From assembly GCA_030535425.1 (NCBI GenBank), contig JAUNHQ010000009.1, positions 1-61,078 of the forward strand: a DNA stretch of 61,078 nucleotides, read 5' to 3'. This document shows, in pieces, positions 16,441 to 18,062 of the stretch. The stretch comes from Pseudomonadota bacterium (lineage in GTDB: Bacteria; Pseudomonadota; Gammaproteobacteria; Burkholderiales; Burkholderiaceae_C). The position numbers and the translations under genes were made by a program. Every line of letters begins with the position of its first letter. Positions within the stretch are counted from its first letter, which is position 1. Under the pieces are notes generated by a model. The model saw nothing but the letters and a program-made list of their open reading frames with translations. It had not been told where the DNA came from and searched no databases.

Positions 16441-17727
16441 ATGTCCGGTTCAAACGACAGCGGCGACAAAACAGAAAAGCCGACCCCGAAGAAGCTGCAA
16501 GACGCACGCAAAAAAGGGGACATCGCCAAAAGCAAAGACATCACTTCTACTGCCGGCCTCTTGGTCATCTTGATGCTGGCAGTGGTGGCGCTGCCAATCG
16601 TGGGTGATCAAATAGCCAGCCTGGTGCGCACCAGCTTCGAGGTCATGCACGAGCCCTTTGCCCAAGCCGCACCGCGCCTGGGCCGTCAAGCTGGCATGAC
16701 GCTATTGATGGTGGTCGGCCTGGTTGCCGTGCCGATAGCCTTGGTGGGATCGCTGGTCGAATTCATCCAAGCCGGACCCGTGATGACCGCCGAGAAGCTC
16801 AAGCCCAAAGCGGAGAACCTGAACCCGGCCAGCGGCTTGAAGCGCATGTTCTCCATGAACAACCTGGTCGAGTTGCTGAAGTCCATTTTGAAAACAGCCG
16901 TGGTTGGCGCCATTGCCTGGTTGATGCTGCGCCAGGTAGCGCCTGAATTGCCGCTGCTGGTGAATAGCCGCCCGGAAAGTGTGGGCGCTGCCTTCTGGCA
17001 GGCCACCTGGCTCCTTCTGGCTTGGGCCGGTGGCGCCTTTGTGCTGGTATCGGCGCTGGATCTTGCCTGGCAACGCTATTCCTTTATGAAAAAAATGCGC
17101 ATGAGCATGCGTGACATTCGCCAGGAGATGAAAGACGCGGAAGGCGATCCGCACATGAAAGGCCAGCGTCGCCAGTTGCAGCAAGAATGGGCGCAGCAAG
17201 GTGCTAGCAACGCTGCTGCCAATGCCCACGTGTTGGTGGTCAATCCCACGCATGTGGCCATTGCCATTGAATACGACCGCGAGACCTGTCCTGTGCCCAC
17301 TGTCATTGCCAAGGGTGAAGACGACGATGCGCTGCTCATGCGCCAAGCGGCCCAGGAGGCGGGGGTGCCGGTGCTGCGCAACATCGAACTGGCGCGCAGC
17401 CTGCTGGCCGATGCCGAAACCGGTGAAATCGTACCCGCCGAACTGTTCGACATCATTGCCACCGTCATCCTATGGGCACAAGACGTGCGGCATGAGCTTG
17501 CCAAGGCGCGTGGCGAAGCTGCTGCCCACGCCGAGGATGCCGTGCGAGGCAAGCCGCGTCCCCGCCGCGAGCCGCCAGGCGAGGATCTCACGCGCTACGA
17601 CTACACGCATCCAACCGACCAGTCTGGCGACGCAGCTGGCGCCCCGCGCTGGCGCCACTTCACGCGTTATGTGCCACGCCGCTGGCGTACCGATCCGCAT
17701 CACGGCATGCGCAGGAGACAGCCATGA
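16441..17727 (+). CDS. sctU: Type III secretion export-switch protein SctU
   Basis: 428 residues of the FlhB/YscU/HrcU family. The N-terminus GDKTEKPTPKKLQDARKKGD is diagnostic and four membrane helices follow. The autocleavage motif NPTH is in LVVNPTHVAIAIEYDR. Cleavage there switches export from needle/rod to late substrates, in concert with SctP. I use the ATG at 16441 because the conserved N-terminus begins there. After the usual end of the family (near VILWAQDVRHELAKARG) comes an extra basic tail of about 70 residues rich in Arg, Pro and His, which is unusual. The stop overlaps the next start (ATGA). Confidence 0.96.
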   Translation: MSGSNDSGDKTEKPTPKKLQDARKKGDIAKSKDITSTAGLLVILMLAVVALPIVGDQIASLVRTSFEVMHEPFAQAAPRLGRQAGMTLLMVVGLVAVPIALVGSLVEFIQAGPVMTAEKLKPKAENLNPASGLKRMFSMNNLVELLKSILKTAVVGAIAWLMLRQVAPELPLLVNSRPESVGAAFWQATWLLLAWAGGAFVLVSALDLAWQRYSFMKKMRMSMRDIRQEMKDAEGDPHMKGQRRQLQQEWAQQGASNAAANAHVLVVNPTHVAIAIEYDRETCPVPTVIAKGEDDDALLMRQAAQEAGVPVLRNIELARSLLADAETGEIVPAELFDIIATVILWAQDVRHELAKARGEAAAHAEDAVRGKPRPRREPPGEDLTRYDYTHPTDQSGDAAGAPRWRHFTRYVPRRWRTDPHHGMRRRQP

Positions 17728-18062
17728 ATGCCCCATCTCCAGCGGGGGCGCAAGGCGCTCTGGATGCCAACCTGTGGTCCAGCCTGTTCGTCACCATCCT
17801 GGCCTTGGCCTTTGTCTTGGCCCTGGCTTGGCTATTCCTGCGGTTGCTCAAGCGTGCGACCACGCTGCGCTCGGCCGACGGCAGCACGCCGCCGCAGGTT
17901 GTGCAGGCCGTGCCGCTGGGCGCACGAGAACGGCTGATCGTGGTGCGAGACGGCGATCACGAATATGTGCTGGGTGTGACGGCCAGCAGCGTGAGCCTGA
18001 TCGACAAACGGCCGGCGGCATCTGCACCCAGCCCGCCGCCTCTGCACGATCACCGCACTTGA
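17724..18062 (+). CDS. FliO-like membrane protein coupled to sctU
   Basis: 112 residues. A short periplasmic N-terminus is followed by one strong membrane helix (LFVTILALAFVLALAWLFLRLL), a basic stop-transfer, and a small beta domain. The segment VQAVPLGARERLIVVRDGDH then YVLGVTASSVSLI has the exact pattern of flagellar FliO (LG.RERLxVVxxxx..LLGVT...V.LI). FliO assists assembly of the FliP-FliQ-FliR core of flagellar export gates. The start codon overlaps the sctU stop (ATGA). No flagellar gene is near, so here it appears dedicated to the injectisome, whose SctR-S-T are the FliPQR homologues. Injectisomes are normally said to lack FliO. Confidence 0.8.
   Translation: MNAPSPAGAQGALDANLWSSLFVTILALAFVLALAWLFLRLLKRATTLRSADGSTPPQVVQAVPLGARERLIVVRDGDHEYVLGVTASSVSLIDKRPAASAPSPPPLHDHRT

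Follow-up and report, generated by a model that had tools for sequence, protein, structure and literature searches.

A FliO homologue encoded behind sctU marks a clade of injectisomes in Pseudomonadota

The window, by which we mean the whole analysed stretch of 61,078 nucleotides, carries an injectisome gene cluster in which sctC, sctD, sctJ, sctR, sctS, sctT, sctU and sctV all score above their NCBIfam cut-offs (Table 1). Behind sctU the ORF listing gives a gene for a 112-residue FliO homologue, whose ATG shares the four bases ATGA with the sctU stop codon; the length and the overlap stated in the first-pass annotation were both confirmed in the sequence. Just past the sctR side of the cluster lies a long ORF (22481-24250, plus strand), whose product resembles, by eye, a LysM-repeat protein with a lysozyme-like part. 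A short ORF at 9819-10118 has no Pfam match and is a needle candidate by position only.

Table 1. Genes of the injectisome cluster in the window, with profile scores against the respective cut-offs
Feature	Position	Strand	Evidence
sctJ lipoprotein	8296..9204	-	TIGR02544 217 bits vs 162
sctD	10216..11346	-	TIGR02500 108 bits vs 86
sctC secretin	11368..13281	-	TIGR02516 393 bits vs 238
sctV	13313..15322	-	TIGR01399 716 bits vs 692
lytic transglycosylase (SLT), between sctV and sctU	15319..16149	-	PF01464 E 2.1e-26
sctU (FlhB family export switch)	16417..17727	+	TIGR01404 385 bits vs 358; start from ORF listing, later start likely
fliO homologue (short N-terminus, one membrane helix, beta segment)	17724..18062	+	PF04347, TIGR03500, model, dN/dS
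227-aa ORF between fliO and sctT	18179..18862	-	no Pfam match above cut-off
sctT	19453..20289	-	TIGR01401 174.5 bits vs 163
sctS	20353..20625	-	TIGR01403 97 bits vs 76.5
sctR (FliP homologue; Phe at FliP-190 site)	20635..21285	-	TIGR01102 260 bits vs 209

The 112-residue product matches PF04347 (FliO; Pfam) over residues 41-106 with 44.8 bits (E 1.3e-11), twice the gathering score of 22, which bears out the family proposed for the translation. HemY_N, the sole other Pfam family listed for it, stays at 13.4 bits (E 0.088), below its cut-off of 31. Since the cut-off of TIGR03500, the NCBIfam equivalog for the flagellar biosynthetic protein FliO, is missed by 0.85 bits (54.4 against 55.25, residues 28-94), we name the product a FliO homologue and do not file it as a flagellar FliO. 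An AlphaFold2 model made with 20 relatives predicts a helix at residues 6-51 and strands at 58-64, 70-76, 79-85 and 90-97, with a mean pLDDT of 76.9 and a pTM of only 0.37. With one predicted membrane helix ahead of a small beta-sheet, the model corresponds, at this pTM, to the architecture of FliO and agrees with the FliO core described in section 8 of PMC12403147. One helix and a beta segment ending in LGVTASSVSLI had also been recognised by the first-pass annotation; 19 residues come after this motif. Among solved structures no relative of the product was found by sequence (best E 0.68) or by fold (best E 0.92). Lys and Arg residues after the helix are consistent with the topology published for Salmonella FliO, whose N-terminus is out and C-terminus in (PMC2947984). 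The gene is under purifying selection, with dN/dS of 0.15-0.35 in 15/15 pairs among the six closest of the copies examined (those of the window, of L004-L007 and of L085) and of 0.35-0.84 in the six pairs involving the more distant copy L088.

The draft genome that contains the window comprises 3.3 Mb in 144 contigs and is 88.6% complete. It holds one FliO gene and one gene of the FlhB/SctU family, both inside the cluster; the search for these two families found no second member of either in the 88.6% complete draft, and in these terms no flagellar gate. Since the sole FliO and the sole FlhB/SctU-family gene both lie in the cluster, a flagellar locus split by misassembly is an unlikely origin of the gene, though 11% of the genome is unseen.

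Our sample of 299 genomes of the family contains 129 with FliO-like matches at E <= 0.001. Thirty FliO loci were fetched, of which one is the window, 20 have an adjoining sctU, and nine adjoin fliP-like and fliQ-like genes and are flagellar. From the side of SctU, 44 loci with at least 327 bits to TIGR01404 were taken; the scan covered matches down to about 283 bits, so that very distant SctU may be missed. By score against the SctU of the window, 22 of the 44 loci form its group, and fliO follows sctU on the same strand in 21/22, so that the survey for the same gene beside sctU suggested by the first-pass annotation gave a positive result. A profile built from trimmed FliO domains found no FliO in the 4.4-14 kb fetched around the other 22 SctU loci. 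The labels flagellar and non-flagellar without FliO are our own and rest on the score, on the order of the genes and on the fetched stretches, and nine lower-score FlhB-like loci (L056-L064) were counted as flagellar, of which only L056, L057 and L059 are in the tree. The exception within the group, G127 (locus L049), retains sctV and a clade-type SctR; it has another gene after sctU and no FliO there, and its sole FliO match adjoins a flagellar-type fliP. Therefore, FliO is either dispensable in G127 or replaced by the flagellar copy of this genome.

A scan of named genomes with the clade SctU profile gave the best 80 loci of a longer list, and the 29 best of these by SctU score (L085-L113) span Ottowia, Comamonadaceae, Rubrivivax, Caldimonas, Pelomonas, Azohydromonas, Thiodiazotropha, Caulobacter, Sphingomonas, Sphingobium, Novosphingobium and Erythrobacter as well as MAGs. 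Of these 29 best loci, 27 carry FliO behind sctU at a distance of no more than 400 bases. Membership of the clade was assigned by SctU score in this set as well, and 21 of the clade loci were then checked by tree. In L102 it is found upstream of sctV instead. L095 has no FliO, and besides its clade-type sctU (9059-10201) no sct gene was found on the 13.7-kb contig; the sole FliO and the sole SctR/FliP match of this genome adjoin on another contig and look flagellar, and the lone sctU is possibly what is left of a lost injectisome. The named and the family set overlap in at least three genomes (L086, L087 and L094 correspond to G146, G141 and G168). In the samples seen, FliO marks one T3SS clade (21/22 family and 27/29 named loci). 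The PF04347 match, the sct scores above cut-off and the linkage to sctU in both sets uphold the original claim of a FliO homologue that belongs to an injectisome. A one-off capture in the window organism is rejected, since the sctU-fliO pair recurs within the family and also occurs in alphaproteobacteria and gammaproteobacteria.

In a phylum-wide sample 160/398 genomes have a FliO match, and among the 29 non-window loci examined sctU adjoins FliO in one (L166) and the order is flagellar in 28. Whole-genome FliO searches of 18 named genomes included 10 with a FliO-less fetched system, of which seven have one FliO and three none. A second arrangement occurs in Myxococcota, where the three loci L116, L133 and L144 have the order fliO-sctR-sctS-sctT-sctU, as in flagella. 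Their FliO reach 22.6-31.4 bits in our home-built profile and pass the Pfam cut-off in both genomes searched (37.3 and 43.4 bits). At 48 sctU-fliO junctions, a four-base overlap of start and stop is possible in 23 (18 ATG, four GTG and one TTG, the start choice being putative), TGATG occurs in three, and the other 22 are spaced differently.

Further genes of the cluster recur to a varying extent. Within the stretches fetched, ORFs like the one at 18179-18862 are present in 10/22 clade loci of the family sample, window counted, and in 5/29 named clade loci. A lytic transglycosylase-like ORF occurs in 18/22 and 25/29 of these loci, respectively, and in some FliO-less loci too. A glycine-rich 260-residue ORF of the window (29085-29867, minus strand) shares 36% identity over 200 residues with the ORF behind sctU in L049 (8127-8822), and has a C-terminal RKQ end in common with the ORF at 9819-10118 (E 3e-5 when the two sequences are compared directly); its product is possibly a protein secreted by the injectisome of the window. 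The SctU of the window has a C-terminal tail of about 80 residues, which contains PPGEDLTRY. A link between the tail motif [AP]PGxD and FliO was considered and dropped, since the motif is present in 30/51 clade tails but in 0/16 alphaproteobacterial ones, which have FliO; outside the clade it occurs in 1/57 other SctU and 0/25 FlhB-like rows. Two near matches, in L081 and L093, escape the pattern.

Two origins of this FliO, recruitment and retention, were weighed. One ancestral Pseudomonadota injectisome may have acquired fliO a single time from a flagellar operon, with insertion behind sctU and inheritance as part of the cluster from then on, a course of events to which we give about an even chance. 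In agreement with this, the clade with FliO behind sctU (21 rows, SH-aLRT 100) is nested among injectisomes without nearby FliO, with a FliO-less Burkholderiaceae group as its sister (fork 91), in a core tree of 65 rows of concatenated SctR-S-T-U-V. This tree comes from a quick IQ-TREE run with SH-aLRT as the only support and has its root on the flagellar systems. In the FliO tree, the 46 sctU-clade FliO lie on one side of a branch (92/44), or 45 at 96/89 if L102 is left out. The position behind sctU also differs from flagella, where fliO stands before fliP (9 + 28 flagellar loci and E. coli K-12). However, the FliO tree is built on 89 rows and 101 columns, its root is arbitrary and its backbone is open; near copies (L168, L169, L182, L183) were left out of it, and L085-L087, L094 and the weak flagellar matches L146, L152, L156, L161 and L164 are outside it as well. 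Since its backbone is open and the sctU-clade FliO belong to 82 rows whose branching is not resolved, the majority from Pseudomonadota with Paenibacillus and one Desulfobacterales row among them, and do not sit specifically among Pseudomonadota FliO, no donor is identified.

Alternatively, FliO could have been inherited together with the gate from the flagellar ancestor via early injectisomes, with losses everywhere except in Myxococcota and the present clade, which we regard as a serious possibility that falls short of an even chance. The non-flagellar systems form one group in the core tree (100), from which Myxococcota branch first, followed by a Chlamydiota-type group (87), and it is the three Myxococcota loci seen that keep the flagellar order from fliO through sctR-S-T-U. 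By our own count, an all-loss history takes about four changes on the core tree against a minimum of three, a small gap. On the other hand, the two FliO-bearing lineages are separated by lineages without nearby FliO, and their union as one clade, a group named after the tree was seen, is rejected in the core tree (AU p 1.2e-7). The Myxococcota copies lie apart from those of the clade in the FliO tree, together with Clostridia-type rows, in a region where long branches meet; joining both injectisome FliO groups is nevertheless not rejected (p-AU 0.26). Taken together, the sequence comparisons mildly favour recruitment over retention.

In Salmonella the deletion of fliO is bypassed by FliP F190L and weakly by FliP R143H (PMC2947984), and both sites were followed in SctR with the numbering of E. 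coli K-12 FliP (245 residues, Arg143, Phe190). Site 190 is Phe in 27/27 FliO-bearing injectisome SctR, namely in 3/3 from Myxococcota and 24/24 from the clade, the latter being those of the 51 clade loci whose fetched stretch holds sctR, with L078 and L086 from one genome. The 31 injectisome SctR without nearby FliO have Tyr in 29 cases and Phe in two; all five Chlamydiota-type SctR have Tyr, and G127, FliO-less behind sctU, has Phe. Flagellar FliP show Phe in 43 and Tyr in nine of 52 rows, and the Tyr rows come from loci with a fliO match. Since nine flagellar FliP have Tyr despite fliO, whether FliO is needed is not decided by this residue, and due to shared descent the pattern amounts to few independent events. 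It hints at an action of FliO on SctR in the clade but does not prove it. No link to FliO was seen for site 143, which is Arg in 45/52 flagellar rows and mixed in both kinds of injectisome. A more far-reaching idea, which we think rather unlikely, is that a flagellar FliO was regained by one injectisome lineage, which adapted its gate to it anew: FliO would have come to lie behind sctU to serve both SctU and SctR, with SctR going back to the flagellar-type residues Phe190 (at the published bypass site), Leu194 and Leu212 (FliP numbering); positions 194 and 212 come post hoc from an unplanned scan of all positions.

FliO of Salmonella stabilises FliP and the FliP-FliR complex (PMC5542435), co-purifies with FlhB and has been proposed to scaffold the FliP ring (PMC5542437). 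Campylobacter jejuni without FliO loses about 40% of its FlhB, and FlhB rather than FliP is supported there (PMC12403147, section 10). The gene behind sctU in the window encodes a genuine FliO homologue that belongs to an injectisome, and we consider it likely that its product acts as a small bitopic membrane chaperone for the assembly of the SctR-S-T-U gate. The overlap with sctU points to a joint synthesis of FliO and SctU, and translational coupling would let FliO be made right after SctU. The helix and cytoplasmic beta segment of FliO could keep freshly synthesised SctR in place and, in view of the linkage, SctU as well, and FliO would leave once the SctR-S-T-U gate has formed. A service to SctR-S-T assembly is presumed; due to the linkage to sctU and the published C. 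jejuni data on FlhB, SctU is an equally good client. Searches of the open-access literature listed no experiment on any injectisome FliO.

Against a chaperone count the missing FliO behind sctU in G127, the TIGR03500 score 0.85 bits under its cut-off, Tyr190 in 9/52 flagellar FliP, Phe190 in G127 and in two FliO-less injectisomes, and the negative searches of solved structures and of the literature. The first two would also fit a drifting leftover, or another small membrane protein that merely resembles FliO. We hold this to be highly improbable in view of the PF04347 score at twice the cut-off, the purifying selection on fliO, and the presence of FliO in 21/22 and 27/29 clade loci from Caulobacter to Ottowia.

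T3SS biology has yet to explain how an export gate is assembled where FliO is missing. For injectisomes, a higher stability of the FliP homologues or their independence of FliO support was suggested (PMC2947984, 2010), and a self-scaffolding function was assumed on account of the absence of FliO (PMC5542437, 2017). The general absence of FliO from non-flagellar T3SS, on which the first-pass annotation relied, is out of date, since section 7 of PMC12403147 (PNAS 2025) reports FliO in such systems of Myxococcota and several orders of Pseudomonadota including Burkholderiales. Thus, the kind is already known since 2025, and what is added here is the clade pattern with its sctU linkage, the two gene orders and the SctR site. 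The sctU linkage, the single-clade pattern, the two gene orders and the SctR site were not found in the accessible text of PMC12403147 or among the open-access papers listed, and the supplementary data of PMC12403147 may hold parts of them or the window locus. With a whole clade that has its own FliO beside FliO-less sister systems, and that lies for the most part outside the classic pathogens, the question becomes open to comparative tests and to simple deletion experiments.

The FliO of the window resembles the non-flagellar FliO of PMC12403147, which are likewise encoded inside injectisome operons and, in the accessible text, are named for Burkholderiales, Caulobacterales, Sphingomonadales and Myxococcota. 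With C. jejuni FliO (PMC12403147) it may share a client of the SctU/FlhB family, which would fit the linkage to sctU. However, the FlhB effect in C. jejuni needs an AMIN domain according to the same source, whereas the 112-residue protein is FliO only in Pfam. With flagellar FliO of Salmonella and E. coli it has in common the Pfam family, a similar length and one helix with a beta segment, but flagellar fliO precedes fliP (fliO-fliP-fliQ-fliR), while the fliO of the window follows sctU and has sctR-S-T on the other strand.
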